Of a DNA stretch of 64,000 nt, positions 6,334 through 64,000 are shown piece by piece. How positions within the stretch are numbered: position 1 is the first letter of the stretch; each line of letters begins with the position of its first letter. A model generated the notes under the pieces. The model saw only the letters and a list, made by a program, of their open reading frames with translations, did not search any database and had not been told where the DNA came from. A program made the position numbers and the translations under genes. This DNA comes from Dastarcus helophoroides (taxonomy: Eukaryota > Arthropoda > Insecta > Coleoptera > Bothrideridae). The DNA is taken from assembly GCA_028583605.1 (NCBI GenBank), contig CM053337.1:15913654-15977653 (forward strand). Reading direction: 5' to 3'.

Positions 6334-6683
6334 AATTCGTATTAGACGGAATATTCGTAGGAGTCTGTGACCCATGGAGCTTGTTAGCATAACAACGGCT
6401 AAACAAATTGCTGGTATAACTGACGATGATGCAGTAATGCGAAATCTGGTCCGGAGTTGGCAAATATTGATCAAAACATTGTGGAATTTTTAATATCTGT
6501 TGCTTTTTGATCGCTAATAAAGTTTAACAGTTATGAACATTAAAGAATTCCACAAAAGGGTTGGAAATGTCAATTAGTGTAGGAGAAAACACGGTCTGCC
6601 CATCTATTCCACCGATACCACTCAATGTAAAATCTCCCATTATATTCTCCCCATGCACAGTGTTTAACTTTCCAGACCCACTA

Positions 6684-6830
6684 AAGCACTGAACTAAACA
6701 CCGTGGCTTGTGATCAAGTCCAAAGAAGGTTTCACCCCTTTACCACATCGGCAATTAAATAAATAATTACGCAACGGCGTATGTGGTAAAGGGGTGAAAC
6801 CTTCTTTGGACTTTCCAGACTCAATTAATC
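6684..6830. repeat. fold-back repeat, family B, ribozyme deleted
   Basis: A near-perfect inverted repeat: about 32 bases starting AGTCCAAAGAAGG and reading through CACCCCTTTACCACAT return in reverse complement about 30 bases later. The same unit, including the preceding word GCACTGAACTAAACAC, recurs at 51.08 kb; a related copy lies at 40.38 kb. In those two copies the arm continues into a hammerhead-like motif; here the centre has collapsed to ATTACGCAACGGCGT, so the motif is lost. Confidence 0.75.
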
Positions 6831-9665: not shown

Positions 9666-10165
9666 TATAATTCCCAAATTCTCCAACGATGGCGCTTGAG
9701 AAATATATTCTGTGCTTGAGAACATAAAATTCATAGTTGGCAACATCTGGAGAAATGTAAAGAGTAAATAGTTTAAAAAAGTGTAATAAAAAGGTAAATA
9801 TTATCTACATCTACCACGATTACCGATAAATGGGAAAGCGTAATGAAATTGTGGAAGTTTAATATGAATCGAAATGACGTCCACGGCTTCAGAAAAAGAA
9901 AATGTTACATTCTCACCTCAAGGATCATAATATGGTTTTCATTCCCCGTCTAATGATTCTCGAAGAACGAGTGTAAATATAAATAAAGTAAAATAGTTTT
10001 TCCAAATTTCATGAAGTTACACTCAGGAAGAGTTTAAACCTGGGAACTACATAGATCGGGGTATGCACAAAAGATCTCCTTAGGTCGAGGAACGGGGTGG
10101 ACGAAGAGAAACACTGAAACGACCCATATATAATCTAATCTAATCTACACTCATGCGGACCTACG
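9666..10165. other. no gene seen
   Basis: Unique-looking spacer with no recognised coding or RNA feature. A short TAATC repeat lies near 10130-10145, just before the tandem array. Confidence 0.4.
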
Positions 10166-11335
10166 AAGATTAGCATGAGTGTATCGTAATGTTAAAAGTT
10201 CACAAAATAATCGATTGCCTAAATCCTGACTGAGAATTTTAATCAACTCTCCAATGGCACTGATTCTACGTTCTCTGTTTTGGACAGGTTTTTCTAAAAG
10301 CTTCATGCAAGAAACTAGATTTTATGAAAAGTTCAGGTAATTTGTTTGAATCTGTTAACGTTAATGTTAATGCGATCAATGTTTATACAACAGTTGAAAT
10401 TTCAGATTGCAATGTTCCCGTAGGGCCATGTTTGACCAATAACTTTTTAAGAAGCTACTCATCAAGATCGCTCGATCCCAAGATAAGGAAAATAACTTCT
10501 AAAATTGAAAAGCATGCTTTAGAAGTCTAAACAAATGGCAAAATATCAACATATGAAGATTAGCAGAGTGTATCGTAATGTTAAAAGTTCACAAAACAAT
10601 CGATTGCCTAAATCCTGACTGAGAATTTTAATCAACTCTCCAATGGCACTGATTCTACGTTCTCTGTTTTGGACAGGTTTTTCTAAAAGCTTCATGCAAG
10701 GAAACTAGATTTTATGAAAAGTTCAGGTAATTTGTTTGAATCTGTTAACGTTAATGTTAATAGGATCAATGTTTATACAACAGTTGAAATTTCAGATTGC
10801 AATGTTCCCATAGGGCCATGTTTGACCAATAACTTTTTAAGAAGCTACTCATCAAGATCGCTCGATCCCAAGATAAGGAAAATAACTTCTAAAATTGAAA
10901 AGCATGCTTTAGAAGTCTAAACAAATGGCAAAATATCAACATATGAAGATTAGCAGAGTGTATCGTAATGTTAAAAGTTCACAAAACAATCGATTGCCTA
11001 AATCCTGACTGAGAATTTTAATCAACTCTCCAATGGCACTGATTCTACGTTCTCTGTTTTGGGCAGGTTTTTCTAAAAGCTTCATGCAAGAAACTAGATT
11101 TTATCGAAAGTTCAGGTAATTTGTTTGAATCTGTTAGCGTTAATGTTAATAGGATCAATGTTTATACAACAGTTGAAATTTCAGATTGCAATGTTCCCGT
11201 AGGGCCATGTTTGACCAATAACTTTTTAAGAAGCTACTCATCAAGATCGCTCGATCCCAAGATAAGGAAAATAACGTCTAAAATTAAAAAGCATGCTTTA
11301 GAAGTCTAAACATAAATCGCAAAATATCAACTTTA
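10166..11335 (+). repeat. three tandem copies of a 390-bp unit, each with a conserved short ORF
   Basis: The word GAAGATTAGCA...GTGTATCGTAATG recurs at about 10166, 10556 and 10946, giving a period of 390 bases and nearly identical copies. Each unit contains an open frame: 10324-10530 and 10714-10920 (68 codons each) and 11121-11309 (62 codons; the upstream ATG has become ATC). The product starts MKSSGNLFESVNVNVN and ends SKIEKHALEV. It has a hydroxyl-rich middle (LRSYSSRSLDPKIRKI) and no signal peptide, membrane segment or domain that I recognise. Differences between copies are few (A/R, V/I, E/K, N/S). It could be an amplified gene exon or a transposon fragment; I cannot tell which. Confidence 0.8.
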
Positions 11336-14630: not shown

Positions 14631-17600
14631 TCATTCACAAAATTTTTTCCATTCCTTTTTGCTTAGCGCTAAAATTTTTGCTTCGTTTAGGTTTAATTGT
14701 CTCTTTCTGATTAATTTATCAATGGTGTCACCCCATCTTTCTTCAGGTCTGCCTCTACGTCTCCGGTCCGATGTTCTTGCTTCCCATATTTTCTTTACTG
14801 GCATGTTATCTTTCATCCTTTGTATATGTCCCCACCAACCTAATTGTTTTTCTTCGACAATTTCTAATACAGGCTTAGCATCCAGTTCTTCCCTCACTGT
14901 TTGATTTCTTATTCGATCTCTTCTACTTATTTCCTTTATCGCTCTTAAGAACTTCAGCTCGACTGCTTGTATCCGGCTTTTCATTCTCTCCGTTAAAATC
15001 CAGGTTTCATTTCCAAATAGTAGTATAGGCTGGAAAATAGTCTTGTATACCAACATTTTCGTATTTTTGGATATTTCTTTTTTCTTGACTATGGTTGCAC
15101 ACATACTGTAATATGCGTTCATTGATGTCCCTATCCTGATTTCCTTTATTATCTATTATTACTCCTAAATATTTGAATTCCTTGACCTGCTGTATATCCT
15201 TATTTACCAATCGTATATTTATTTTTTTATTTTCATCTTCTGTTATCGCCATTACTTTTGGTTTTATTGACATTTATTTTCATTTGTTTAGATTCTAGAG
15301 CTTCTTTCCATATTTCTAAGTTAGTTTGTAGGTCTTCGGGTGAATTGGCCATTATTACTATATCATCTGCAAATGCACATTCTTTTATACCTACTTTTTG
15401 TAGATTGTAGTATCCTAATTGTAGGCCTGTTGTTTTAGGACATGTTTGTTTGATTATGTCATCTATCAGGATAATAAATAGTAATGGGCTAAGTACTCCT
15501 CCCTGTCGTAAACCATCTCTTGTGTAGAAAGTAGAAGACTGCATATTTCGCGTTCTGACGTAATTTGCATTTTCCTCATATATGCTTTTTATTCCAGCAA
15601 TTAATTTTCGGCTGACTCCTCGTTGTTCCAAACTTATCCATATTTCTTTTCTGGGTGCTCTGTCAAAAGCCTTTTCAAGATCAATGAACGCTAGATATAC
15701 CTCTCTCCGTTGTCTTCATATTTTATCCGTAAGTTGTTTCATCCTGAATATATAGTCCTGAATACTGTGGCCTCTTCTAAATCCACTTTGGGATACACTT
15801 AATTGCGTTTCTATGACTAAATGGAGCCTGTTTGCTAACACCCTTTCATATATCTTTGCTACAGTGCTCAATAAAGTTATACCTCGATAATTTTGGCATT
15901 GTTTTCTATCTCCCTTTTTATATATGGGCATAATAACACCTATTCCCCAATCTTTAGGTATTTTTCCTTTTATCCATGCCTTATTACAAATGTTGTACAA
16001 TAGTTTTACACCTTTCCTCCCCATGTGTTTAATCATATCTGGTGTTATTCCATCATGCCCGGGTGCTTTTCCACGTTTTGTTGCCTTGATTGCTTCTTCA
16101 ACTTCCTCTATCGTAAGTACTTCATTTTCTTCATCTGCTATTGTGTCATTTGTTGTTACTTTTTTGCCTTCATGTGTCTCTGTTTCCAGTGGATTTAATA
16201 GTTCGTAAAAGTATTCTTTCCATCTGTTCATAATTAAATTCTCATCTTTTAGCAATGCGCCTTCTTTGCTTGTTATAGTCGTCCATTTCTTTTCTTTTCC
16301 TTTTCTTATTGTCTTCACTGTTTTATAAAATAGCTTGCGATCTCCTTTATTTGTCTCCTTCATTTTTTCCCCAAAACATTCCCATGCCTTCTGTTTAGCT
16401 TCCAAAACCATTTTTTTTTACTTTGGTTCTTCTCTCCTTATACAAAGTGTATTTTTGTGCGGTGTTATTATTTAAGTACTCTTTCCACGCTTGTTTCTTA
16501 AATTTAGCTTCTTTTTTGATTTCATCGTTCCACCAGGCAGTTAACTTTTTATTGGCGTTAGTTGTAATCGTGCCACATGCTTGTTTAACTGCTTCTATTA
16601 CTACTTTCTTAAATATTTGCCATATGTCTTCAATATCTTTTTGTTCAATCTCCTTTTCTATATTACTTATTTTTTCCTCAATAATTTGATGATGATTGTT
16701 TGCTACATCTTTTTCTCTTAATCTGTATGTTTTAATATTTTCTTTTTTTACTGGTGCAGTTTTGTGTCGTTCGTTGTCACTCCTACACCTCTTCTTTTTC
16801 CTAATTTTTGCTACAACCAGGTAATGATCACTAAATATTTCCGCACTTCTTTTGACTCTTACATCCGTGATCGATTTCCTATTATTTTTTTGCACAAGTA
16901 CGTAGTCAATTATGGATCTTTCTTTTCTGTTTTTCGCTATTCTTGTAAATTTATGTATATCCTGGTGTTCATAAAACGTATTTGTTATTATGAGATCGTT
17001 CAATATGCAATATTCTATCATTCTTAACCCATTGTTGTTTATTTTTGTTTCCCCACATTTTCCAATCACATTTACATTTCTATTCTCTCTTTTACCCACC
17101 CTACTGTTAAAATCTCCCATTACGATAATTTTACCTCTACATGTCTCCGTGGCCAATGGTAGTTCCTCCCAGAATTGATCTTTATTACTCGCTAAATCAT
17201 CTTCATTTGATCCATACGCTATTATCATGCATATTCGTTCCCCATATATATCATCAAATTCTATTTTTAGTATTCTTTCAGAAATGCCTTCCCAATTTAG
17301 TATATTATCTACTAATCCTTTCTCTATTATGCACCCAACCCCTGCCGCAGCATGTTTACTTTGTTTTACTCCACTGTAATTAAAAGGTGTCCATTTTCTA
17401 GCACTAGTTCCCCTTGCCCCTTCTTCTTCGTTTCTGTTATTGTTAATATTTGGATCTCTGTCATTTCAAATTATTCTATTAGTTTCTCCTCTTTTCCCCT
17501 TAGTCCTCTAACATTCCATGTTCCCCCTTTCCAAATTTCTTTTCCTGTTTTTTCCTTTTTATTTATTTTTTCTATTGTTGTGTTTTTATGTGTTTTCGTA

Positions 17601-30802: not shown

Positions 30803-30829
30803 ATTTCAAAGTCTAAGTTTTAGAATAAA

Positions 30830-33000
30830 TTGGAATTTTAAGACAAAAAGTTGAACAGTTAATAAAAAAAGAAGAACTTTAAAAAAAATTTAAATATTTT
30901 GAAGAAAGTAGAAATTTTGGGAATAAATTTAAAATAAAGGAAATTTCAAAAAAGATCAAATTTTAAGAAAAATATATTTTGCAAAAGAGACGAATTTTGG
31001 AAAAAGGTAAAAACTTGAATATTTTGAGAAGTGTTGAAATTACGCTAAAAAGACGAATTTTGACAAAAAAACAACATTTTAAAAAAGTTCGAAATGTCAA
31101 GTATCAAGTTCAAAATACAGAAAAAGACAAATTTTCTCAAAAAATGGAAATTTGTTTATAATAATCTGGAATTTTAGGAAAAAAAAAGTTAAACATTTAA
31201 TTAAAGAAAAAAGGAATTTTGGAAAAAATTGAAATATTTTGAGGAAAGTAGAAATTTTGGAAAAATGTTAAAAAAGGGATATTTCCAGAAAAAGATCAAA
31301 TTAAAAAAAATGTCTTACAAAAGAGACAAATTTTGGAAAAGGGTAAAAACTTGAATATTTTGAGAAGTGTTGAAATTACGCTAAAAAGACGAATTTTGAC
31401 AAAAAAACAACATTTTAAAAAAGTTCGAAATGTCAAATATCAAGTCCAAAATACAGAAAAAGACAAATTTTCTCCAAAAATGGAAATTTGTTTATAATAA
31501 TCTGGAATTTTAGGAAAAAAAGTTAAACATTTAATTAAAGAAAAGAGGAATTTTGGAAAAAATTGAAATATTTTGAAGAAAGTAGAAATTTTGGAAAAAT
31601 GTTAAAAAAGGGATATTTCCAGAAAAAGATCAAATTAAAAAAAAATGTCTTACAAAAGAGACAAATTTTGGAAAAAGGTAAAAACTTGAATATTTTGAGA
31701 AGTGTTGAAATTACGCTAAAAAGACGAATTTTGACAAAAAAACAACATTTTAAAAAAGTTCGAAATGTCAAGTATCAAGTTCAAAATACAGAAAAAGACA
31801 AATTTTCTCCAAAAATGGAAATTTGTTTATAATAATCTGGCATTTTAAGAAAAAAAAAGTTAAACATTTAATTAAAGAAAAGAGGAATTTTGGAAAAAAT
31901 TGAAATATTTTGAAGAAAGTAGAAATTTTGGAAAAATGTTAAAAAAGGGATATTTCCAGAAAAAGATCAAATTAAAAAAAAATGTCTTACAAAAGAGAAC
32001 AATTTTGGAAAAAGGTAAAAACTTGAATATTTTGAGAAGTGTTGAAATTACGCTAAAAAGACGAATTTTGACAAAAAAACAACTTTTTAAAAAAGTTCGA
32101 AATGTCAAATATCAAGTCCAAAATACAGAAAAAGACAAATTTTCTCCAAAAATGGAAATTTGTTTATAATAATCTGGAATTTTAAGAAAAAAAAGTTGAA
32201 CATTTAATTAAAGAAAAGAGGAATTTTGGAAAAAATTGAAATATTTTGAAGAAAGTAGAAATTTTGGAAAAATGTTAAAAAAGGGATATTTCCAGAAAAA
32301 GATCAAATTAAAAAAAAATGTCTTACAAAAGAGACAAATTTTGGAAAAGGGTAAATACTTGAATATTTTGAGAAGTGTTGAAATTACGCTAAAAAGACGA
32401 ATATTGACAAAAAAACAACATTTTAAAAAAGTTCGAAATGGCAAATATCAAGTCCAAAATACAGAAAAAGACAAATTTTTTCCAAAAATTGAAATTTGTT
32501 TAGAATAATCTGGCGTTTTAAGAAAAAAAAAGTTGAACAGTTAATAAACGAAAAGAGGAATTTTGGAAAAAATTGAAATATTTTGAAGAAAGTAGAGATT
32601 TTGGAAAAATATTTAAAAAGGGATATTTTCAGAAAAAGATCAAATTAAAAAAAAATGTTTTACAAAAGAGACACATTTTGGAAAAAGGTAAAGACTTGAA
32701 TATTTTCAGAAGTGTTGAAATTACGCTAAAAAGACGAATTTTGACAAAAAAGCAACATTTTAAAAAAGTTCGAAATGTCAAGTATCAAGTCCAAAATATA
32801 GAAAAAGACAAACTTTCTCCAAAAATGACAATTTTAAAAAAAAGTTGAGCATTTAATAAAAGAAAAGAGGAATTTTGGAAAAAAAATAAAATATTTTGAA
32901 GAAAAGTAGAAATTTTGGAAACATGTTAAGAAAAGGATATTTCCAGAAAAAAAAACAAATTAAAAAAAAAGTCGAAAATTTCAGAAAAGTTAACATTTTG
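30830..33000 (+). repeat. A-rich tandem satellite, about 337-bp unit, six or more copies
   Basis: The segment starting GAGGAATTTTGGAAAAAATT recurs at about 31543, 31880, 32216 and 32554 (spacing 336-338), with older copies before 31200 and a decayed one after 32850. Neighbouring units are highly alike. Each gives a lysine-rich open frame of 60-91 codons on the plus strand and a Phe-rich one on the minus strand; these are composition effects, not genes. The unit is itself made of the short GAAATTTTG-type motif. Confidence 0.85.
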
Positions 33001-36691: not shown

Positions 36692-45283
<8,592 letters not shown>

Positions 45284-48264: not shown

Positions 48265-48310
48265 CAACATACTGATGAAGCCAAGGAAGGCCAAAACCGG
48301 TTTATGATTG
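48265..48310 (+). ncRNA. hammerhead ribozyme-like motif, family E
   Basis: Plus strand: stem I strand CAACATA, perfect core CTGATGA (48272-48278), stem II GCC/GGC with loop AAGGAA, then CAAAA where CGAAA is expected, self-complementary stem III ACCGGT (48296-48301), T48302 as cleavage nucleotide, and stem I strand TATG-a-TTG. Stem I has seven pairs with one bulged A. The change at the first G of GAAA hits the nucleotide known as G12, the general base, so this copy is probably inactive. It lies 50 bases after the family A copy. Confidence 0.65.
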
Positions 48311-48319
48311 TAAATATTT

Positions 48320-50235
48320 TCAACTATATCACGTTCGACTGTTTCATTACAGAGCATTTAATTGGTTAAGTTTGACATACTTAAACTTTAACTTAAAAAA
48401 AATGAAAATAAAAAATTCCAATTTGGAATACTATAGAAAATCGGATATTAGACTGAAAAAAAATTCCAGGTTTAAACTCAGACACTGGAATTAAAATATA
48501 AGTTAAGAGAGTGGAAAAAAATAATTGAATTTAAATTACAACAGATAGGTAAAAAAAAGTGATAAATCTTAGAAATAACACTAATTTTAACATCCAACTC
48601 AAACCATCAACAAAAAAATCGAATTTTCTAATTTGAGATCGTTATCTAGGAAAAAAGTATAACATTTTTTTAATTTTAAGTAAAAGTTGCAATGCTGCGG
48701 AAAACTCTTGCTTCATAAAAAAATTGGCTTTTTGAGGAAAAAGTTGGGAGAAAGAAAATTCAACCGTTTAAGCTGACGTCATTTGCTTAACAAAAAAAAG
48801 TAAAATATTTGAATGAAAATGAGAAAAAAAAATCAACATGTTAGGTTAAACAAGGTTAAATTATGAGGTTTCTAGGAAAAGTTATTATTTAAGGTTTACC
48901 ATTTTGAAGGTCTGAGCTTAAACTGGAAAATTAGAATATTTTACTTTTTTCTCGTGAAATTTCGAATTTGATATTCCAGATCTAAAATATCGAGATTTTA
49001 ATCAAAATGTGAAAAATGGCCTATTTATAAAGCAAAAGGATTAAAAAATCTTTTAGTGGGTCGCGAAGGTGAAGCGTTAAACCAGAGTTAATATTTTACA
49101 AAGACTTCTTATTCGAAATTTTAAGAAAATAAAAAAACTAGCGCTTGCTTCTTAGACTTCCACCTTTGTTTTAAAACTAATATGCTATTTAAAAAATTTC
49201 GCTTTTAAGGCCTAATTAAAAAAAACTTCCATTTGAACGCACAAAAAAGGAGAAATTTCTTTAAAAAATCCGAAAAATTAAAAATAAGTATATTTTTGGA
49301 ATCCACTTTTTCTTTTCAAACTTTGGACTTTAACCTCTCAATTGTAAAGTTGATATTTTAATGTTGTTTTCAAAATCAATTTAAAGTTCAAAATTCAAAT
49401 TCAATTTCAACATTTTAAAGTTTTGTAAAAGCTCGACTTCGATGCATGAAAATTTGTTGAATTTGAAAAATTTCGACAAAACATAATTTCAGCTTTAAGT
49501 TTGGAGAAAGTTCAGATTATGTAGGAACGGGTTCCTAAAATTTTTCATAGAAATCTTAAAATTTGGTTTTTTCCCCAATGATAGTTTTTTTGAGCTTTCT
49601 ACTTCAGTCATAAAATTTACATATCAAACTTAAGATTTTCGTTTTCAAATTTTCGACTTTAAAATTTTGCAACTAAAATCGAAATTGCCAAAACAAAACA
49701 TATTTGTAAAAAAAAAAGTCTGAGCCCAAAGTCTTAAGTTTTTGTAAAAATATTTAAATCGAAAATTATGAGAAAAACTAAGAAATTTACAGCAAAATGT
49801 TTCTTTTTCGTTTTTCAACTGCTGAACTGAATAGCTGGCAAATGTTAATGAATATTAGTGTGACAACAAATCAAAAGTCAAAGATTGTTTACAAGTTCAT
49901 AGAATTACCTATAAAAATTAGCTTGCACTTAAGTCATAACATGATACAAATAAGCTAAGGATCTATTTTGGGAATAAAATATAGGCACTTTTAAATCATT
50001 TAATTAGGGAAAATTACAAATATAACTCTACACATTAAGATCTAGAATAGTTTGCGTTAATATAATGATAGAGCACAACTAGTAAAAAAAGAGTGACTCC
50101 AAGAGCAGTTGGATAGAATCATCAGGTGAATATCCGTGAACATTCTGCAAGAAAAACACAAATATAATTATTTTTACCAATTTTACAATAAAACTGTTAT
50201 TCTAACGCCCATACCAATCGATTAGAACACTTATC
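48320..50235. other. AT-rich spacer, no gene
   Basis: Degenerate A-rich sequence with weak AAATTTCGA vocabulary to about 49.8 kb, then more unique sequence. No coding or RNA feature recognised. CCTGATGATTC near 50120 (minus strand) has no GAAA partner. Confidence 0.5.
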
Positions 50236-50254
50236 AGATTCAGAGTTTTTAAAA

Positions 50255-50294
50255 CAAAGAGCGGTTTTGACCTTATTAGATCTCGTCAGTTTGG
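50255..50294 (-). ncRNA. hammerhead-like motif, family C copy 1
   Basis: Minus strand: CCAAA, CUGACGA, stem II GAUCU-AAUA-AGGUC (one G-U pair), AAAA for GAAA, CCGCUC, UUUG. The core box is intact but G12 is A, so it is likely inactive. Confidence 0.6.
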
Positions 50295-50400
50295 CATACC
50301 CAACTCGAATGCTAACAAATATTCCAGGCAAAGTATACATTTACAAATTAATGGACTTCGTCCATGTGATTCCTAAGAATCCTGCAACCTGATTGTGAAA

Positions 50401-50441
50401 CCAAAGAGCGGTTTCGATCTTATTAGATCTCGTCAGTTTGG
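50401..50441 (-). ncRNA. hammerhead-like motif, family C copy 2 (intact core)
   Basis: Minus strand: stem I strand CCAAA, core CUGACGA, stem II GAUCU-AAUA-AGAUC (five perfect pairs, tetraloop), GAAA, then ACCGCU as stem III word, C as cleavage nucleotide, and UUUGG pairing with CCAAA. Beyond stem I, GUUG before and CAAU after can pair across an internal loop, as in natural type I hammerheads. The weak point is stem III, where ACCGCU is not self-complementary; the 53.57-kb copy has ACCGGU instead. Confidence 0.7.
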
Positions 50442-50545
50442 CATACCCAACTCGAATGCTAATGAATATTCCGGCAGGTATACATTTACAAATTAATGGA
50501 CTTCGTCCATGTGATTCCTAAGAATCCTGCAATCTGTTTGTGAAA

Positions 50546-50586
50546 CCAAAGAGCGGTTTTGATCTTATTGGATCTCATCAGTTTGG
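50546..50586 (-). ncRNA. hammerhead-like motif, family C copy 3
   Basis: Minus strand: CCAAA, CUGAUGA (canonical), stem II GAUCC-AAUA-AGAUC with one C-A mismatch, AAAA for GAAA, CCGCUC, UUUGG. Same G12 loss as copy 1. Confidence 0.6.
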
Positions 50587-50687
50587 CATACCCAACTCGA
50601 ATGCTAACAAATATTCCGGTAAGTATACATTTACAAATTAATGTTCGTCCATGTGATTCCTAAGAATCCCGCAATCTGTTTGTGAAA

Positions 50688-50721
50688 CCAAATTTGATCT
50701 TATTCGGTCTAGTCAGTTTGG
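50688..50721 (-). ncRNA. hammerhead-like motif, family C copy 4, decayed
   Basis: Minus strand retains CCAAACUGAC and a stem II relic, but CUGANGA has become CUGACUA and the stem III segment is deleted. It is listed as the end point of decay in the array. Confidence 0.5.
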
Positions 50722-51065
50722 CATGCCCAACTCGAATGCTGACAAATGTTCTGGCAAGTATACATTTACAAATTAATAGACTTCGTCCATGTGATTCCTA
50801 AAAATCTCGCTATTTGTTAGTGAACAAAAAAAAAAAAGTGAAATAGCTTCAACAAGTTCTCTGCAGATAGAGCAAGACAACTACACACATCGGGCTTGCA
50901 TTATTGCATTCTAGTTCGTATTCTATTTGCATAAAACTATCAAATAGAAATATTTTGATTGCTTAAATAATTCCTTTTAGGAGCACATTTTGTGTCCTCG
51001 AAATACCACATGACTTTTGCTTAAGAAGAATTATTTCAGCTACAAAAAAAAAATTAGGCATAATT

Positions 51066-51285
51066 AAATCCACTAAAGCACTGAACTAAACACTGTGGCT
51101 TGTGATTAAGTCCAAAGAAGGTTTCACCCCTTTACCACATCGGCAATTAAATAAATAATTACGCGATACGTATTTCGCCAGCCGAGTGCGCTTGAAAATG
51201 CCAGTTCGGCTGGCGAAATACGTATCGCGTAATTATTTATTTAATTGCCGATGTGGTAAAGGGGTGAAACCTTCTTTGGACATAA
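51066..51285. repeat. family B fold-back palindrome, nearly perfect 75-bp arms
   Basis: Left arm 51111-51182 (TCCAAAGAAGG ... TATTTCGCCAGCC) and right arm 51208-51281, its reverse complement, flank a 25-base centre GAGTGCGCTTGAAAATGCC plus neighbours. The left side is preceded by GCACTGAACTAAACACTGTG, shared with the 6.7-kb copy. The right arm starts inside the hammerhead-like motif, so the complete motif is formed only on the plus strand; the left arm holds its 3' half on the minus strand. Confidence 0.9.
51187..51231 (+). ncRNA. hammerhead ribozyme-like motif, family B
   Basis: Plus strand: stem I TGCGC (51187-51191), core TTGAAAA (51192-51198), T, stem II GCCAG/CTGGC with loop TTCGG (51200-51214), GAAA (51215-51218), self-complementary stem III ATACGTAT (51218-51225), C51226 as cleavage nucleotide, stem I GCGTA (51227-51231). 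The 40.4-kb copy has UACGC where this one has UGCGC: an A-U pair against a G-U pair, so pairing is kept. U3 and A8 replace the usual C3-G8 pair in both copies. Activity is uncertain. Confidence 0.6.
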
Positions 51286-51529
51286 TTAAATCCAAGCAAA
51301 CAAAAACGTTGGGATTTCGTTTATTTAAAAACTACGATATAAATTACATTTACCCAAATTTGCGTATTTTAACCCAATTAACGCTAAACAAAATACATAT
51401 TGCTTGTTCAACACTAAAATATGCAACTTTGCCAAAATTTAATAAACACTCTAGTTTTTAAAAAAAGCGAGATCCCAACTAGTGGATTTTTTTCAAAAGA
51501 TGATTAGTTAGTAATAAATATTTACTACT

Positions 51530-51862: not shown

Positions 51863-51884
51863 GTTCAATCATTCATATTTGTAT

Positions 51885-52020
51885 GCAGTTTTATTGGCTT
51901 TTTCTTCGCCGGTCACTCCTTTCCTTTTTTTTTTTTTGTGAAAGGAGTGACCGGCGAAGAAAAAGCCAATAAAACTGCATACAAATATGAATACTTCGCA
52001 AATAAATTACAGAGAATATT
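51885..52020. repeat. fold-back palindrome around a T-run (GGAGTGACCGGCGAAG family)
   Basis: Left arm CATATTTGTATGCAG...GGCTTTTTCTTCGCCGG...ACTCCTTTC and right arm, its perfect reverse complement of about 47 bases, are separated by a run of T. The right side continues as in the 9.4-kb copy (AATACTTCGCAAATAAATTACAGAG). A fragment, TTTCTTCGCCGGTTGCTC, is near 52903. It has no hammerhead core that I can find. Confidence 0.9.
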
Positions 52021-53235
52021 TCAATCATTCATTTGAATCGACAGCAAAAAACATCTTTTCATCAATATCCTTAAAATATACAGATATGTTAAATCAATTA
52101 AAATTCTTAGACCTCCCGAAGTTTAACAAGTTTCGCTAATGTCGGCTGGTGAATGTTTAAACAATTGGAGTTAATAGTAAAAACATTTCCTAAACAAAAT
52201 GTATAATGACGAAGACGACGACGACGTGGTGCAAATTCATAATAATTAAATTTAACCCTTAAGCATTTGAAGATTTCACTTAATCGTGTAAAAACTATTA
52301 AAAATAAGTTATTTGAGGTTATGTTTACAATTTAGTGTCTTACGTTACGGTTTGATCTACTTACTTTTCTGCTAGTTGATTTCGCTGTGATTTTGTGTAC
52401 CTTGTTAATATCGACCAGGTTTTATTCGGTAAATTTCGAATGTGGCAAACTTTTTGCCTTTTTCAGTGATACGTTGTCAATTTGCTGATCACAGAATAAC
52501 TGTCAAAGATTAAAAAAATGTGGGAGTGACAGATAAACAGATATCTATCAATAATGTTGACGTGGTTTTATCAGTTAGGTCATTGAGACATAGATGGCAA
52601 TCTGTCGCGAGTTTAATTTTCTTGTGTATTAAAGCTATAAATACTTTATTAAATAATTAGGCTAATACAGTTGGTTACATTCAGGTAATTCGTGTATATT
52701 CTGAGAACAATTGCAAGGAACTATTTCTTCATTATTTTCCGAGTTGCTAAAGTACCCTGTAAAATGAGTTTTGTTTTAGCTTTCAATCCTTAGATGGCGC
52801 ATGCTTGTCCATTGCAGGTAGTTCTGTGATGACGCAGTGGCGTATCCAAAGTTCCGTAAAAGTTAAATAAAATATTTCCTATATCTCTGCAAAATGATGT
52901 TTTCTTCGCCGGTTGCTCTATAAATTTAGATTTTCTTTGCCATTTTTTGTAAAGCTGGATAAATTGTCAGCGTATTTGTTCAAATTATAACCACAAATTG
53001 TCTCTTGAAATTGTAATGTTTTTCTTTGAAGTTGAATCCACATCAATAAAAATTTGTGTTTTGCGTTCTGTCACAAAAAGTTAGGTTATATTTACGATTT
53101 TTGTACTGTATTTGAAAAATTTAGGATGCACACGAACGTATTCGACAGTATTAACATACAAAGTAACTGCATGCCACAAAGTAAGTTACCTTGTTTTTTT
53201 TAATCTCAAAATACAATTCTTCATAGTGAACTCTT
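52021..53235. other. spacer, no gene seen
   Basis: Mixed AT-rich sequence. It includes a short GACGAAGACGACGACGACG run near 52208 and a copy of the TTCTTCGCCGG word near 52903. No coding or RNA feature can be supported. Confidence 0.4.
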
Positions 53236-53240
53236 CTTGA

Positions 53241-53761
53241 CCGGAAATATATGTTTTTTAATTTTATTTAACATTTCTTCGGCCCAGTTTGGAAATATTT
53301 AAATTTTTATTGCTTGTTGACAATTTTCTAAACAGTAGTCATATTTCAAAAACTGTTTAGAATATTCAAGAAGAATGCAACCTAGACTACAAATTCATGC
53401 AGCCCTCCAGGCGGCGTGTATAGTGAATCATAGGTAGCTGAACTACCAACAGTTGAAACACTACCACCTAGCGAAGCGGTTGCTCTCTAGGAGAGTTCCC
53501 AGAAGATAAGGATTCTATAATGCACAGAGCAATTAGGTTTGAACATTTATTAGATTCGAAGTTTGGAAACCAAATACCGGTTTCGATCTTGTTAGATGAT
53601 CTCGTCAGTTTGGTATATCCAACTCGAATGCTAAACAAATGTTCCGACAAGTAAGTACTAAAACATTCACAGAATATTGTTAACAAACAATAAAAATTTG
53701 AATATTTCCAAACTGGGTCGAAGAAATGTTAAATAAAATTAAAAAACATAATATTTCTGGT
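53241..53761. mobile_element. element with 85-bp inverted arms enclosing a hammerhead motif
   Basis: The left arm (53241-53330) contains TTTTTTAATTTTATTTAACA, then TTTCTTCGGCCCAGTTTGG and AAATATTTAAATTTTTATTG. The right arm (53677-53761) is its reverse complement with few differences. Between them lie a GC-richer stretch (53385-53520) and an isolated family C unit. The arrangement parallels the Penelope remnant at 6.0-6.5 kb: inverted arms, internal sequence, hammerhead. No protein domain is recognisable inside. Confidence 0.65.
53570..53613 (-). ncRNA. hammerhead ribozyme-like motif, family C (isolated, best stem III)
   Basis: Minus strand: stem I strand ACCAAA (with one flanking base), core CUGACGA, stem II GAUC...GAUC closing a nine-base loop, GAAA, self-complementary stem III ACCGGU, A as cleavage nucleotide, stem I strand UUUGGU. 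Core and stems I and III are complete. Outer GUUGG can pair with CCAAC-like sequence beyond an internal loop. A short self-complementary stem III without a loop is the form known to act as a dimer in Penelope-like and retrozyme hammerheads. Confidence 0.7.
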
Positions 53762-53789
53762 TAAATAAAATTAAAAAAACTCAAAATAC

Positions 53790-55056
53790 AACTTACAACA
53801 CAATTTTTATTGTTGTGGATCTAGCTTAAATCTTGATTTTTAAATCCGTAAGTTCGATTTTTTCGAATTCAAATTCGAATTCGACCTCGAAATCTTAAAT
53901 TTTTTACCGAATTTCCTGGAAGTTTCTCCAAATGTCGACTGTAAATTCGAAATTTAAACTTTCGATTCGACTTGTCTAGAGATTTTAATATATTTCCTGC
54001 TTTAAACTCTAAAATTTTTACAAAAAAAACTGTTTATAGTTTTCAATGTTCTAGAATTTCACTTTTTTCTCTAGAAATTTTGACTTCTTTTACAAAATTT
54101 TGAAAACATCGACATTTTTAAAATAATTGCAATGAAAAAATGAAATTTAAAAAGAATAAGCTGAATGTTTCAAATAAGTTAGGATTTGCAAAATAATTCA
54201 AAATTTCAAGAGACAAAATTTTAAGAAAAATCCAAATTGTCAAAATTTGCTAAAACAAGTTCAAATTTTAAAAATTAAAACTTCTTAACAGAATTCGAAA
54301 TTTACAGAAAAAATTGAAATTTTTAATAAGCGCCGTAACGTTGAAGTGAATTCTGGAAAGTCGAAAACCTCAAAAGCATCTTATTCACAAAATGGAACTG
54401 AACCGAAAATTTCTTCTGTCCTGAAGTGTTTGAAACTTCAACATTTAAAGAAAATCGAAATTTTAAGAAAATATAAATTTGTTTTTCGCAAAAGTCGAAA
54501 TTGTTGAAAAAATCCAGATTATCAAAAGTCGGCATTTCAAAAAATGTCGAAATTCCGAAAGAAGTCAAAATTCTTAAGAAAAACAACAAAAACAAAATCA
54601 AATTTTTAAAAATTCAAATTTTTTAACAGATATCAAGATTTACAAAAAAAAAAAAATTGAAATTTTTCAAAAACGTCGAAAGTCACAATTCTGGAAATAC
54701 AAAATTTTCAAAAAAGTGTCAATCTTTAAACCATAGTACGAAAATGGAAATTTTGAGAAAAAGTCCAAATTTTCAAAAAAGATCGAAATTTTTAAGTCAA
54801 TATTTCAAAAAAATAGAAATTTATACAAAAGCCTAATTCGTTACCTGAAAAGCGATCGGGATCTCAAAAATCGAGATCCCGGGATCAAATCCTCTACACA
54901 CAAGTGGATCTGTACGTCATATCTGAAATGCCCAATGCATAGATATCATTCGAAAATAACTGACCCATAATTTTGTTTTATTTTTATTCCCAAGTTACAC
55001 TTACATGTGACGCAGTTTTTTTAAAGCTATTTTCTGTTATTTCTGAGCCAAACACT
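53790..55056. repeat. degenerate AAATTTCGA-type repeat upstream of NEDD1-like gene
   Basis: Mixed T-rich then A-rich degenerate satellite up to about 54.84 kb, followed by about 250 bases of unique sequence. A hairpin, CGGGATCTC...GAGATCCCG, lies at 54858-54882. No gene. Confidence 0.55.
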
Positions 55057-55123
55057 TATGACAATACTTGTTTTTAGGTTTAGGTTAAAGTTTGTTCTTT
55101 TTAGTATATTATCACTTTTATTT

Positions 55124-55151
55124 CTACTAATACATATTGCGTTATCCGCAG
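55124..55151 (+). promoter_or_regulatory. likely branch point and splice acceptor before the NEDD1-like start
   Basis: CTACTAATAC (55124-55133) is a strong branch-point match, and TTATCCGCAG ends at 55151, five bases before the ATG context GCACCATG. The 33 codons upstream in the same frame are hydrophobic and have no counterpart in this family, so they are best read as intron. This implies at least one upstream non-coding exon. Confidence 0.65.
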
Positions 55152-55156
55152 GCACC

Positions 55157-56857
55157 ATGTACATAGCCTCTTCGTCCACCACAGTCAAGTTCCACGAGTT
55201 CCCTCAAGGCGATCTCTTGTACAACTACCAGCCGGGCACCAAAGTCGACGGTCCGATCCGCAGCATATCCTGGAGTAAAGACGGCAACTGGCTAACCTTG
55301 GTGCCGTACTCCGGCTCCGCGGAGATCATCAGCATTCGCGATCAATTAAAATTGATACACACCGTCACCGACATCGAGGATCCGTCGTGCGCGACCTTCC
55401 AACACACCACTAAACGACTGGTGGGTTTCGCGACGAAGGACGGCCAAGTGCTAGTGTACGATATCAAATCGAAAAATGTCAAAAAAAGATACCAGAAGAT
55501 GCCATCGTGCGTGACTCATTTGGAGTTCACAGCGAAAGATAAGTATCTGGTTGCTGGTTGTTCCACCGGGGAAGTCAAATTGTACAGCAACGTTACTAAT
55601 AACGTGGCTGGGGCCCTGAAGGTTCCCCGATCTAATAGTTGCAGTTGTTTGCGCACTAATCCCATAAAGAGTAACTATGTTGCCGCTGGGAGTGACGAAG
55701 GGGTTGTCGTTGTTTGGGACACTATAGTTAACAAGCACAAGTTTTTTACTGAATCACACAAGGCGCCGGTGACAGGGGTAGCGTTTTCCCCTATCAACGC
55801 CGACTTGGTCATATCCACGGGTAGCGATAGACAGTTTTGCTGCTACGACATCGTTTCTCATAAATGCATCGCCAGCATAACCGTTGACAACAATATGACG
55901 GCTGTGGATTTTTCCCCGGACGGGACCCACTTCGTTATGGCTTCTCAAAACGGCAACATACACGTATTCGATTCCAGACGCATTCAAGAGCCGATGGTAT
56001 CTTTTCAAGCGCACAAAAGTTCCATAAAGCAGATCAGGTTGCAAACCATAGAAACCAACACCAGCAGCTACAGCATCACCGAAGAAAACTCGAACTCGAT
56101 CAAAGATTCGCCAAAATCTAACCTAGTGGACTCTTTCACTCCTTATTTGTATTTGGCTGCCGAGCCGATGGATTGCGAGGGGAATGCGCCCCCATTGACT
56201 GATCACGATGATTCTTTTTTGGCCGCCTTAGGCATCGATAACAGCACAGTCGAATCCGTCAACGATTACTCTTCGATTCGAGAGCGCACGCGCTGGACTA
56301 CTCGTACGGGCGAAGTGGAACCTTCCCCAGTCGCTAGCAAATCTACCATGGGGGATGCCGAACCGTCCCCGGCTGCCCCCCACCTTCCGGTATTCGATAG
56401 AATGAACTTAGTCGATGCCAAGGGCAATCAGATTTCGACGCCGAATTTCCAGAAGGCTTTACCAGAAAATTTGCGTGTGTTCAGCACGGAGAAAGTCCTA
56501 TCGCCTGTGGTTAATTTGTCGCCTGCTTTAAACAATTCTATAATTTCTGACATAAAAAATACGGTGAGGGAGGTGGTAAAGGAGGAGTTGTCGGGGGTTT
56601 TTGAAGCTCTTAAGGACGAGGTTAAGTTTCAAGCGTATGATAGCGTGTGGCAGATGCGCAAATTGTGCATTAATACCAACATGATGATGATTAAAGAGTT
56701 TATTAAGTTGGAAGATAATGTTAATGCTCTTAGGGAGGAATCTTTTAACACTACGTCTGTTCCTAACCTAGCAGAAGAAAATATGAAACTAAAGCAGCAG
56801 GTGATGATGTTGGAACAGCAGTTGGCTAAACTGGGGGCTAACCAAAACTCGAATTGA
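55157..56857 (+). CDS. NEDD1-like WD40 protein (gamma-tubulin ring recruitment)
   Basis: A 566-residue protein of the NEDD1/Grip71 family, which targets gamma-tubulin ring complexes to centrosomes and spindles. Residues 1 to about 295 form WD40 blades: ISWSKDGNWLTLV, GQVLVYDIKSKNV, GEVKLYSNV, GVVVVWDTIVNK, then HKAPVTGVAFSPIN, TAVDFSPDGTHFVMASQNG and FQAHKSSIKQI, in the order and spacing of NEDD1. A low-complexity middle has SP and TP sites of the kind used by mitotic kinases (VEPSPVA, AEPSPAA, ISTPNF). The C-terminal 120 residues are helical, with a basic/acidic helix (NTVREVVKEELSGVFEAL) and a closing coiled coil (NMKLKQQVMMLEQQLAKL), where the family binds gamma-tubulin. The start at 55157 is chosen because of the acceptor just upstream. 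No internal intron is seen, which is unusual but not proof of a retrocopy. AATAAA is at 56947. Confidence 0.9.
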   Translation: MYIASSSTTVKFHEFPQGDLLYNYQPGTKVDGPIRSISWSKDGNWLTLVPYSGSAEIISIRDQLKLIHTVTDIEDPSCATFQHTTKRLVGFATKDGQVLVYDIKSKNVKKRYQKMPSCVTHLEFTAKDKYLVAGCSTGEVKLYSNVTNNVAGALKVPRSNSCSCLRTNPIKSNYVAAGSDEGVVVVWDTIVNKHKFFTESHKAPVTGVAFSPINADLVISTGSDRQFCCYDIVSHKCIASITVDNNMTAVDFSPDGTHFVMASQNGNIHVFDSRRIQEPMVSFQAHKSSIKQIRLQTIETNTSSYSITEENSNSIKDSPKSNLVDSFTPYLYLAAEPMDCEGNAPPLTDHDDSFLAALGIDNSTVESVNDYSSIRERTRWTTRTGEVEPSPVASKSTMGDAEPSPAAPHLPVFDRMNLVDAKGNQISTPNFQKALPENLRVFSTEKVLSPVVNLSPALNNSIISDIKNTVREVVKEELSGVFEALKDEVKFQAYDSVWQMRKLCINTNMMMIKEFIKLEDNVNALREESFNTTSVPNLAEENMKLKQQVMMLEQQLAKLGANQNSN

Positions 56858-59384: not shown

Positions 59385-62300
59385 ATGAAAAATCAACAAA
59401 CGCTTCCTCGATGTTGGTTTTGTCCAGGATTTCACTGGAATGCTAACTGTCCAAATAACCAAGGCAACTGGCGCAGCGAACTTTGTGCAGAATCAAATCA
59501 TGGAAACGACAGGAAGCTCGTCGCTCACGGCGGCACCGAGCTCCCAACCAACAGCCGTACCCAGCATTAATTCGGTCACTCCAGACCGGAAAGCCATCGT
59601 GTAGTCTGCCACGCATTCAGATTAGCATCGGAAGAAAGAGCTATTCAGCACTCGTTGATACTGTGCTAATGGTAATTTTGTCCGAGCTGGGCTAATTAGC
59701 CAAGAGTGTCACCCATATCGAACTTCCTTGCAACTAGCCGCCAAGGCCACATCCATCGTCACTGGAGTCCAGAACCTGGAGGTTCAAGTTGGGACCCATG
59801 CAAAGACCATTAAACTTCTGGTGGTCGAGAGTCTTAACGAGGAAATGATCTTAGGTTACCCCTGGATGGAAGAGGAAAATGCCTATCTAGACGCAAGAAG
59901 AAGATGCATCCACTTCGGCAATGAACGCAGGTACACAGAATATCTTTTGGGGCCAATCTACCACAAAGACCACAGCATCACGACACCCACCATTGAGAAT
60001 GCTTTTCCAACACAACTGCAGCCAAATCTACGCAAACTCTTTGCTGAATTTAAAGACATTTTTGCTGGTCAAACAGGCTATATCACTACTCGATCTATGA
60101 CACACGAAATCCGGCTTAAAAATCCAACACCAATCCAACTGCGACTATATGCCTATTCAGAAGCCAAGCGCAAAGCCATGTACGCACAGATTGAGGAGAT
60201 GATGGCCAGCAAGATCATCGAGCCAAGCACATCTGAATACATCTCTCCTGTGGTCATGGTATCAAAAAAAGATGGCACTTGGAGATTTTGCGTTGATTAT
60301 AGGCAACTTAACTCCCAGACTGCGGATGAGTCAACGTCTCTTTCTCTTATTCCTCAAACTTTAAAAGATCTAGGAAACGCCACCATCTTCTCGACACTGG
60401 ACCTAAAGGCTGGCTATTGGCAAATTCCCCTAAGCCAAAACTCCAAGAAATATACAGCATTTACGACACCAAATGGCGCTACTTACCAATTTAGAGTGCT
60501 TCCATTTGGGCTCAAGAACGCACCTGGAACTTTCCAACGCTTCATGTCTCAAGAAGTATGGCCTGGCCTCTTGAATGACATTGCATTGGTCTTCTTGGAT
60601 GACATAATTGTTTATTCCTCTACCTACGAAGAGCACCTTACGCATTTCCAGGTCGTTTTTGAGAGTCTTCGATCCCATGGACTAACTTGTGCACCAGAAA
60701 AGTGTCAACTTGGAAGTTCCCAAATTCAGTACCTAGGTCACCATATGGGAGCATTAAGCAACGAGCCCTTAGAATGTCACTTGGAGTCTATCCAAGCTAT
60801 GAAATCTCCGAAGACGCGAACCCAGCTTCGACGATTTCTAGGCCTCTTTTTTATTGGCTGCGCGAATATATACCTATTTTCACACAGCTAGCCGCACCTC
60901 TCACCAACACTCTAAGTACCAAGAAACCATATCGCTGGAGTGAAGAATGTGACGTCGCCTTCAGAGCCATTAAAGACGCCGCCATGAAGGAACCCAGGAA
61001 ATTGCACCGACCAGATCCAAATCTGCCTTTTATTCTCCAGACAGACGCAAGTGGAGTTGGAATGTCAGCTGTTCTTTATCAGCCAATTCAGGATGGAGGA
61101 AAGAGGATCATATCATATGCCAGGGCTAAGTTCACCCCTGCCGAGCAGCGATATCATGTGAATGAACAGGAGTTCCTGGCTATCGTCTGGGCCGTAAAAA
61201 GATATCGTCAGTTTCTGGAGAGTCGCCCCTTTACTCTCAGAACAGACAACCGCGCTCTTCAGTGGTTAAATAAAATGAAAGACGACAGGTACCCGCTGGG
61301 CACTGCTCTTGCAACAGTATTCTTTCACGGTAGAGCATTGTCCCGGAAAACTTTACGAACTTCTAGATGAATTATCCCGACATCCCCAACCGGCAACATC
61401 TCCGGCCGACTTTACCGATCTGGAAGAAATTCTTCCACTAATTCAAGCCCGACAAAAACCCGTACCAGAACCGTTATGCTGTCAACTGGAGATCGTGACA
61501 TTAACTGAAGAGGTCAAATGAGCCCAGGAGCAAGACGAAGCTACCCAAGCAATGCTGGCCCAACTACAAGCGCCTCTCGGCCCAGATTCAGAAGATTGGG
61601 AACGACGCTCACACCAGCTCAATATAGAGCAAGATGGCCACCTCTATCGACGCGAGATGATGCGTCTCATAGTTCCGCAATCCGTGATAGAGAGGGTCAT
61701 TTTCGAATATCACGACTTTCAATTAGCGGGACATCCAGGACGGGAAGAAACAGCAGATGCAATCTCCCGACATTTCTTCTGGCCTTCCATTTCCCAAGAT
61801 GTGGCCCAATACGTCAGAGGCTGCTTGTTGTGCGCTCAATTCATGCCACCGCCGATCTGTGACCGCGTCAGCCAACTGAATCATGGCAGACCATAGCATG
61901 CGACTTGATGGGGCCGTATCCAGTGACAGATGACGGCAATCGTTTTGTGCTCACGGTCACTGACCTTTTCTCCCGATGGGTCGAAGCGTTTGCTATTCCA
62001 GAAACGAGGACTAGCCGTATCACTCAGCTCCTGGAGGAGCAAGTCTTCCACAGATACGGCTATCCACGAGAGATCATAACTGATAATGGACCTCAGTTCT
62101 TGAGCCGCCGCGGGACAAGAAGTTGCGAACAATGGAAAGCAGCACATTGGACGACTGCCACTTACCACCCGAGGGCAAATCCAGCGGAATTGCGCGATCG
62201 AGAAATTAAGAAGGGCATCCAAATTCATCTATCAGGACAAGATTCCAGCTCTTGGGATGGCTACCTGCCGGCTACGCTCTTCAGTCTCCGAAGGAGAAGG

Positions 62301-62677
62301 AACGCCGCCACTGGCAAATCGCCCAGTGAAATCCTTATGGGCCACCTGCTCCTTGGACCTGGAGAATGGGATACTACAGCCACACCACCTCCACGAGACA
62401 TAACCGATCAACGAGAAGTCGCTCGAAGAAATCAAGCGCTTTACATTCGAAAAAGATGGCCCCAACGAAGACGACATCTCCACCAATACCTTCCGGGGGA
62501 TTCCATCTTGGTGCGAAACGAAGTCCGTCGACCTTTTGAAGCCCGATGGCAGGGACCCTAGCCATCATTCGCGCAGCAGGTGAGACGTGCTACTGGATCT
62601 TTAGAGACGATTTACTGCAAAAGATCCATGTGGACCGTGTTCGACCTGCTCCCCCAATACGACCCGTCACCGAATAG
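59385..62677 (+). pseudogene. gag tail and pol of the Ty3/gypsy-like element, broken
   Basis: Order of domains: zinc knuckle CWFCPGFHWNANC (59412-59450, one residue shorter than the CCHC norm between C and H); protease with LVDT but without the following Gly because of a frameshift near 59660; reverse transcriptase with FCVDYRQLN, FSTLDLKAGYWQI and FLDDIIVYS; RNase H with TDASGVGMSAVLYQ and TDNRALQWL; integrase with an HHCC finger (HDFQLAGH ... CLLC), TVTDLFSRWVEAF, DNGPQFLS and a catalytic Glu in NPAE. Breaks lie near 59660, 60846 (T-run), 61305, an in-frame TGA at 61519-61521, near 61875 and near 62558. The final frame ends RPVTE at about 62677. No envelope gene is seen. Confidence 0.85.
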
Positions 62678-63019: not shown

Positions 63020-63599
63020 TTATACCGTATATTCATCTTTTTGACGACGCTTAATGGTAGAAAAAAAATCGCTAGGCAGAAATTGAAGTATTCACTAAAG
63101 TGATAAGATAATTATACCCCAATGAATAACAGGATGTTTGTCGTCTTGAGTGCTTTTCCTTATCATGAAAAATGCAATTAGGATGGACAAAGGGTGAGTA
63201 ATGTCGAGCCTTGGATAATTGCTCAAGGCTTTTGTCCCTGAGTCCATTACAGCCCGGATGTTTAATAGACGTTTACCATCAACTGTCCTAATTGCGTTTC
63301 ATTTTAATGGAACTGCAATTGAGATAGACAAAAGCCGATAGTTGCATTCCTTCTAGAATTCGTTGGGGTGGTAAATTGAATCTTAATGACAATCGCTTCC
63401 CAATAAAAGGCCTCGGTGGACAAACCAGAGGCAGTCCCTTGTCAGACACAAAAGGCCTGGCCTTTCCCGACAGTTTTGCCTAGTGATTTTTTTTGAACCG
63501 ACCGTGAACAGCAGTGCTATAGACTTTCAGACTATAAAAAACTATTTCGATTTTTTTTTTTAATTTGTATTTTTACCAAATTTACGCGGCCCCGGTATC
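63020..63599 (+). mobile_element. 3' LTR (580 bp)
   Basis: From TTATACCGTATATTC to CCCCGGTATC, bounded by the polypurine tract and the AGACT duplication. It contains AATAAAAGGCCTCGG near 63402, which could serve as the TATA or poly(A) region, and two similar segments, GGACAAAGGGTGAG/ TAGACAAAAGCCG. Inner boundaries cannot be set because the 5' LTR is missing. Confidence 0.75.
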
Positions 63600-64000
63600 A
63601 GACTCTTTGCCTGAAATCTCCAGTCGACGTTTTGCCCATGAACATTAATATGTCCATATGCTTGGAGTCTTCTTCGGGTGAAGAAGACTGCTTGGGTCTT
63701 GACTGCGTTGACTTGGATTCTCCATTGACCGAAGTAATCTAGTAGACTATCTGTTGCCACCTGAAGTCGTCTGAACTCTGGACTGAAAGAGAACGCCACC
63801 AAAGCTGTGTCGTCTGCATAAGTTACCAATAAGGTGTGGTCGATTGTTGGATTGGTTCTCGGGATGTCCGCTGTGAACAGAGAATATAGCATAGGTGACA
63901 AGGCAGAGCCTTGAGGCACCCCATACTGTAGCCTACACTGGTTTGATAGTTCCTGTCCCACCTTTGCTTTGAATGAGCACTGGTCCAACAGCGAGCTTAC
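63600..64000 (-). pseudogene. jockey-type LINE ORF2, reverse transcriptase palm, 5' of the insertion
   Basis: Minus strand, running in from beyond the right edge. It shows YGVPQGSALSPMLYSLF, then the catalytic TYADDTALVAFS, then the WRIQVNAVKTQAVFF thumb region and ends VDWRFQAK at the AGACT site. The protein continues at 59273 on the far side of the LTR element. This portion is open throughout. The endonuclease and N-terminal reverse transcriptase lie outside the window. A different jockey copy at 1.8-3.2 kb supplies only ORF1, so the two are not parts of one insertion. Confidence 0.85.

Follow-up and report, generated by a model that had tools for sequence, protein, structure and literature searches.

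The metazoan non-LTR retrozymes carry a type I hammerhead in a non-coding tandem unit of a few hundred base pairs, with a GC content below 50%, a strongly self-paired RNA and TSDs longer than 4 bp; in the available sections of the source the animal units range from 150 to 450 bp (PMC7229834). Penelope elements have been proposed as their movers from co-occurrence, and the accessible parts of the same two accounts treat both the mover enzyme and the use of circles as template as likely, though unproven (PMC7229834, PMC7761336). In HHR_Amex1, the hammerhead of the amphibians newt and axolotl, helix III is a single base pair capped by a palindromic tetraloop (PMC7229834, available text). Penelope-like elements, as far as the accessible text of two studies goes, combine opposed arms, short TSDs, a tail on one arm, an internal start of reverse transcription and hammerheads (PMC3846280, PMC11167929): in Adineta they have inverted pLTRs, TSDs of 8–10 bp and a 31-bp tail (PMC3846280), and in Anolis both strands are cut and extended, with internal initiation (PMC11167929). 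A hammerhead in repeated DNA of an insect is known from pDo500 of Dolichopoda cave crickets, which the available text presents as satellite DNA and without head-to-head insertions (PMC2837043).

Here we analyse a stretch of 64,000 nucleotides from the beetle Dastarcus helophoroides (the window), together with the genome to which it belongs (539 Mb, 50 contigs). The minus strand of the window carries a tandem array at 50251–50824 (145-bp period, 4.0 copies, 89% matches; Tandem Repeats Finder), which is probably the decayed product of a local duplication in a diverged member of a dispersed family, here called family A. Family A shares with the metazoan non-LTR retrozymes all of the features listed above; its head-to-head multimers with two fixed ends are undescribed for them, the terms 'inverted' and 'head-to' being absent from the available text of PMC7229834. 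No report of head-to-head retrozyme insertions was found in listings of open-licence papers or in the accessible parts of PMC7229834, PMC7761336 and PMC8490949. Its helix III and loop, A-CCGG-U, have the amphibian form, whereas the host is an insect, the unit measures 377 bp and the sequence is a different one. Opposed arms, short TSDs, a tail on one arm, an apparently internal start and hammerheads are shared with Penelope-like elements, from which family A differs in having no open reading frame, a full 377-nt unit and a tail of ~147 nt, compared with 31 bp in Adineta Pen2a (PMC3846280, available text). We favour, with a probability of roughly 0.6, a joint explanation in which a relic array, the dispersed family A and a two-ended insertion cycle of Penelope type belong together.

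The window also holds a NEDD1-like gene at 55025–56857 (a single 610-aa frame with no apparent intron), whose best named relatives are from ladybird beetles (46–50%), in agreement with the insect origin given by the original prediction. An open frame at 44081–45283 contains tubulin domains; the match begins at profile position 53, so that the N-terminal part is absent from the frame. Further tandem arrays lie at 10165–11331, 30819–32970 and 38751–40204 (periods of ~390, 337 and 297–303 bp), and frames with reverse-transcriptase domains of other retroelements at 59659–62561, 14631–17465 and 63560–64000.

Family A and the anatomy of its insertions

A genome search with the array gave at least 57 matches (40 of 2076 first-look candidates scored), many of them in opposite-strand pairs. 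Twenty regions were chosen by us from these matches, with L023–L026 being L002–L005 again. The unit of one of them, L010, is 377–379 bp long, and a search with it returned at least 197 matches (40 of 1525 candidates scored), the complete units listed being 98–100% alike. Family A thus appears to be a dispersed, non-coding, retrozyme-like family of this beetle with a 377-bp unit and a type I hammerhead. Positions in the unit (u) are numbered from the cleavage site. Of the 41 complete units, drawn from 20 insertions, 39 match an intact hammerhead pattern; one of the two misses is an extraction edge and the other has a changed G12. Helix III is palindromic (ACCGGU), the GC content of the unit is 0.424 and the longest stop-to-stop frame in the tripled unit is 72 aa. 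Folded as a circle, the unit is predicted to reach -134.4 kcal/mol with 69% of its bases paired (z ~ -8 against 60 shuffles).

Insertions were mapped at 33 places, comprising 16 from the chosen regions (L009–L022, L027 and L028) and 17 from the 30 loci that the search with the young L010 unit had retrieved, among which L037 is L010 again; the latter 17 are young copies by virtue of that search. The more diverged places L002–L008 stand outside the 33, and among these seven only L007 has opposed arms (ends at u56 and u207, 11-bp repeat), the other six having no clear form. End positions come from two mappings, which disagree by a few nucleotides for older copies and differ in taking L012 as one piece or two. 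In 26 of the 33 insertions two opposed arms are joined at their 5' sides, i.e. divergently, head-to-head. One outer end of these 26 falls at u55–67 (median u61) and the other at u198–215 (median u208), with 24 of the 26 within 204–216. The flanking repeats measure 12 bp in 15 cases, 13 bp in three, 10 bp in two and 8 bp in two, with 6, 9, 14 and 17 bp occurring once each. Flanks share a string of at least 9 bp in 23 of 27 insertions (the 26 and L053), compared with 6 of 702 mismatched flank pairs. The seven insertions outside the two-ended form (L015, L017–L020, L028 and L053) either run in one orientation or have a complex structure, with a 10-bp repeat in L028.

The arms comprise fractional numbers of units, the longest extending over 5.46 rounds (L060), and the cleavage site is crossed in every round, so that a circle or an uncut multimer must have served as the template. 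In L065 one private base is common to all three complete units of both arms, and in L066 both units likewise share one. Private bases of this kind argue against a linear template, in which an uncut multimer is transcribed from an array in the genome and otherwise inserted as proposed below. So do the dispersed positions of the 1525 first-look candidates and the longest arm, of 5.46 rounds, no long source array having been seen among the loci examined. A linear template would readily give arms that run through uncut cleavage sites and units that differ inside one arm, where 6 differing positions are counted for L010, 7 for L055 and 32 for L022, which a single monomeric circle leaves unexplained; we regard such a template as a serious, if somewhat unlikely, alternative. 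Units differ on average by 3.15 positions within an arm (20 pairs), by 1.45 between the arms of one insertion (20) and by 5.68 between insertions (780).

The two preferred ends have a possible counterpart in the folded RNA. In three near-identical young units u58–62 is predicted to pair with u195–199 and u49–53 with u203–207, so that both start sites would sit at the base of one folded domain, with u61 and u208 opposite each other on a single helix. Two older family-A units were also folded, and in these the two ends were not placed across one helix; the facing is thus seen in three of five folded units.

Penelope-type elements and the candidate enzyme

The original prediction linked the locus to Penelope-type reverse transcriptases, and such genes are present: a GIY-YIG search of the genome gave at least 91 matches (150 of 1070 candidates scored), and both of the two open reading frames tested, of ~416 aa, combine RVT_1 with GIY-YIG as in Penelope-like elements. 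Family A has no such frame of its own, the frames lying elsewhere in the genome, and shows no DNA similarity to the 20 GIY-YIG loci L067–L086. Near the array, 31 frames of 55 aa or more overlap 47–55 kb; in the 10 of them compared with Pfam, no reverse transcriptase or GIY-YIG match was found at E 0.1.

Two short head-to-head copies of one Penelope-type 3' end lie in the window. The first, at 51073–51280, is 97–98% alike to L087 and L088 and is flanked by a TSD of 13–14 bp (51059–51072 and 51281–51294); the second, at 6678–6809, has an 11-bp TSD (6667–6677 and 6810–6820). Both consist of opposed arms, with one end ~35 nt longer, so that the two ends are spaced by ~35 nt compared with ~147 nt in family A; this resembles the layout described for Penelope-like elements (PMC3846280, PMC11167929). 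Other pieces of the Penelope-type element in the window, for example at 40378–40505, have no clear flanking repeat. That retrozyme and Penelope copies of one genome have the same geometry adds indirect support to the proposal that Penelope elements move retrozymes. A degenerate hammerhead-like relic on the plus strand at 48268–48306 (21.2 bits, E 0.011) belongs to a stretch, 48268–48365, that is 78% alike to the motif of the GIY-YIG locus L072.

Twin priming of LINEs also yields inverted copies, and frames with LINE-like reverse transcriptases occur within the window. A LINE-type enzyme might therefore insert family A by twin priming in place of a Penelope-type enzyme, and the available part of one report gives TSDs of 15 bp, near LINE sizes, for Nematostella repeats (PMC4918200). 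Both ends are fixed in the RNA, however, family-A insertions were not seen to carry an A tail or a 3' end of LINE type, and the Penelope copies of the window have the same two-ended form, which together make a LINE-type enzyme improbable and leave a Penelope-type enzyme as the preferred candidate.

Two other palindromic stretches of the window should be recorded. At 51871–51992 an inverted repeat of two perfectly matching 53-nt halves, 16 nt apart, gives several sub-threshold matches to Rfam microRNA families, which we take to be an effect of the palindrome; the stretch is possibly another minimal head-to-head insertion. The palindromic repeat at 41354–41578 matches Rfam MIR9563 on both strands (67 bits, below gathering), is related to stretches in several GIY-YIG loci and has an 11-bp flanking repeat.

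The 145-bp array and the nested insertions at 53 kb

Each array unit ends, at its 3' side on the minus strand, in a type I hammerhead block of the form CCAAA-CUGANGA-stem II-GAAA-short stem III-NUH-UUUGG. The original prediction of four minus-strand 145-bp units with hammerhead motifs is borne out at 50251–50824, with a further copy at 53.57 kb, and so is the full core of its copy 2 (counted by ascending coordinate), the block at 50398–50460, which has the only full core of the four, a non-palindromic stem III (ACCGCU) and the triplet CUC (RF02275, 24.0 bits). The other three cores are altered at G8 or G12 (in the usual hammerhead numbering, with which the literature consulted agrees). The blocks at 50251–50313 and 50543–50605 (the latter with 24.3 bits in RF02275) have G12 changed to A, and the relic at 50685–50740 (59.2 bits in our own model R1) has G8 changed to U, lacks ~7 nt and has no cleavage triplet. 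As predicted, the CUGANGA box is found in three copies and altered in one, the 50.7-kb copy reading CUGACUA, and CCAAA and UUUGG can pair as stem I, with UUUGU in the 50.25-kb copy. The predicted GAAA or AAAA holds for three copies (GAAA in 50398–50460 alone, AAAA in two) and is not quite right for the 50.7-kb copy, where the missing ~7 nt include the triplet.

On the minus strand the stretch that precedes the array (50825–50880) continues the longer unit of the relatives L002–L008 (~u200–u240, divergent; alignment), and the array is closed by the short family end, a tail at 50203–50250 that lies 3' of the last hammerhead and is homologous to family-A u1–~u61 and to the 53.5-kb copy (BLAST, alignment). 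At the junctions of the units the first bases 3' of the cleavage site are joined to ~u238 at a short shared string. Such junctions are most simply explained by a local tandem duplication, although a short RNA circle may have been their origin; no TSD of the array locus was found. The period of 145 bp is therefore probably not that of the retrozyme unit.

A retrozyme whose 145-nt monomers process themselves into 145-nt circles would account for the period, for the hammerhead motif in every unit and for unit junctions close to the cleavage site. Against the array itself being such an element stand the three changed cores, the upstream continuation into a longer unit, the 377-bp unit of family A and the lack of any other pair spaced by 145 bp among the 57 matches listed, and we consider it quite improbable. 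The working array of 145-nt monomers envisaged in the original prediction is not supported. In the genome search the 56 other matches listed (40 of 2076 candidates scored) are all 155 bp long or shorter, and a spacing of 145 bp occurs between none of them. The units were called unusually short; 145 bp would be not far outside the range of 150–450 bp in the available text of PMC7229834, and the family unit here is 377 bp. What remains of the predicted retrozyme-like locus are hammerhead motifs beyond chance, a retrozyme-like family and frames with reverse transcriptase and GIY-YIG in the genome.

Two sites of the window, at 50436 and 53608 on the minus strand, match a strict type I descriptor; simulated windows with matched first-order base transitions contain 0.01 on average, and at least one site in 4 of 400. 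The hammerhead motifs of the window exceed chance. Covariance models are less decisive. Rfam at its gathering thresholds gives no match in the window, and a relaxed Rfam search of the 64 kb lists RF02275 (Hammerhead_HH9) at 53626–53552, 50595–50531 and 50454–50383, all on the minus strand, with 24.4, 24.3 and 24.0 bits, and no other hammerhead place. The E values are 0.11–0.15 for the whole window, 0.0013 and 0.0017 for the array stretch alone and 0.00043 for 53.57 kb alone. Copy 2 and the 53.57-kb copy, for which a covariance-model match had been expected, do therefore match, at about 24 bits compared with a gathering score of 52, so that the covariance support alone is sub-threshold for Rfam. 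RF00163 (Hammerhead_1) has no row in the Rfam listings of the window, which show the best of each clan only.

The alignment of the four window copies contains no compensatory pair changes, and among 57 aligned hammerhead matches (33 distinct rows) two pairs have both sides changed, a number reached in 39 of 500 shuffles; the covariation support for the hammerhead is weak. Conservation of the core above the rest of the unit, also expected, holds when copy c3 of the array is compared with the one at 53.57 kb (49/54 identical in the hammerhead block, 40/62 with 31 gap columns in the upstream part) and hardly within the array, where c3 and c4 agree at 51/54 positions of the hammerhead and at 84/91 of the remainder. 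An extended stem I (AGCAUUCGAGUUGG with the tail) pairs better than shuffled partners at the two tail-bearing loci (p 0.016 and 0.038) and has no advantage over them at two internal array junctions (p 0.18 and 0.12). For the array copies at 50398 and 50543 the structure of minimum free energy contains a different hairpin in preference to the hammerhead. Exact-pattern scans of viral and prokaryote collections gave 0 hammerhead matches.

The copy at 53 kb is a family-A insertion on the minus strand (53367–53670; 94–95% to the unit) with its 3' end at u208 and its 5' side truncated at ~u284, flanked by an 8-bp TSD, AGAATATT, at 53359–53366 and 53671–53678. Its hammerhead (53567–53632, minus strand; RF02275, 24.4 bits) has a full core, a palindromic stem III (ACCGGU), the triplet GUA and a 3-nt insert in stem II or its loop. 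The insertion is hosted by a short head-to-head copy of a second family, family B, which lacks its hammerheads here (53217–53779; 12-bp TSD CTCAAAATACAA at 53205–53216 and 53780–53791). Once joined, the flanks of the family-A copy can be aligned through their junction, without a break, with L030, L032, L034 and L036 of family B (L032, 87.5% over 120 columns), so that the empty site is seen. Family B is a hammerhead family of different sequence, with up to 45.9 bits in RF02275; a genome search gave at least 43 matches (58 of 46564 candidates scored), none above the RF02275 cut-off. Its helix III is palindromic as well, ACAUCGAUGU occurring in 10 of 10 distinct strict hammerheads of seven family-B loci. 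Two of these seven have head-to-head arms, L032 with a 12-bp repeat and L034 with one of 14 bp, and the other five are single-armed or complex without such repeats.

A TIR DNA transposon at 53.57 kb was considered and rejected, because the inverted repeat is the short head-to-head family B, into which family A was inserted later. In general terms, the head-to-head loci might be cut-and-paste TIR elements or products of later DNA rearrangement, with the hammerhead as a passenger: the arms are long inverted repeats with TSDs, and family B in L032 is nearly symmetric over ~1 kb. The ends of family A are unequal, though (u61 and u208), its arms differ in their non-integer unit numbers and the inner junction is variable, all of which renders a DNA-level origin very improbable. 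A chance likeness to hammerheads, to which the lack of an Rfam match at the gathering score might point, is rejected as practically negligible, given two strict motifs where 0.01 per window are expected, an intact pattern in those 39 of 41 family-A units and full hammerheads in the unrelated family B.

A putative insertion cycle

The cycle that we propose would begin with multimeric transcripts that are cut by their own hammerheads, which perhaps act as dimers held together by helix III, a palindrome. The monomers, and sometimes larger forms, would be closed into circles. An endonuclease would then nick the target twice, ~12 bp apart as the TSDs suggest. The anatomy of the insertions, with their two preferred ends and opposed arms, is consistent with reverse transcription starting at ~u61 on one DNA end and at ~u208 on the other, and with repeated rounds on the template until the two arms meet head-to-head. 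The enzyme would be of Penelope type, its machinery using both ends of the cut DNA to prime the copying of circular or multimeric retrozyme RNA. In one old copy the part next to the hammerhead would later have been duplicated in tandem, giving the 145-bp array. As a model for animal retrozymes at large, two-ended target-primed reverse transcription of one ribozyme circle, with a Penelope-type double cut ~12 bp apart, starts at u61 and u208 and several rounds on each side giving head-to-head multimers, is put forward tentatively, at slightly less than even odds.

The insertions provide a DNA-level signature for which any genome can be searched, namely opposed arms that stop at two fixed 3' positions, are flanked by a TSD of ~12 bp and run repeatedly through the cleavage site. 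The back-to-back multimers of the young family-A copies hint at how such RNA elements jump, and a genome with many near-identical copies of the family is a place where the model can be tested.
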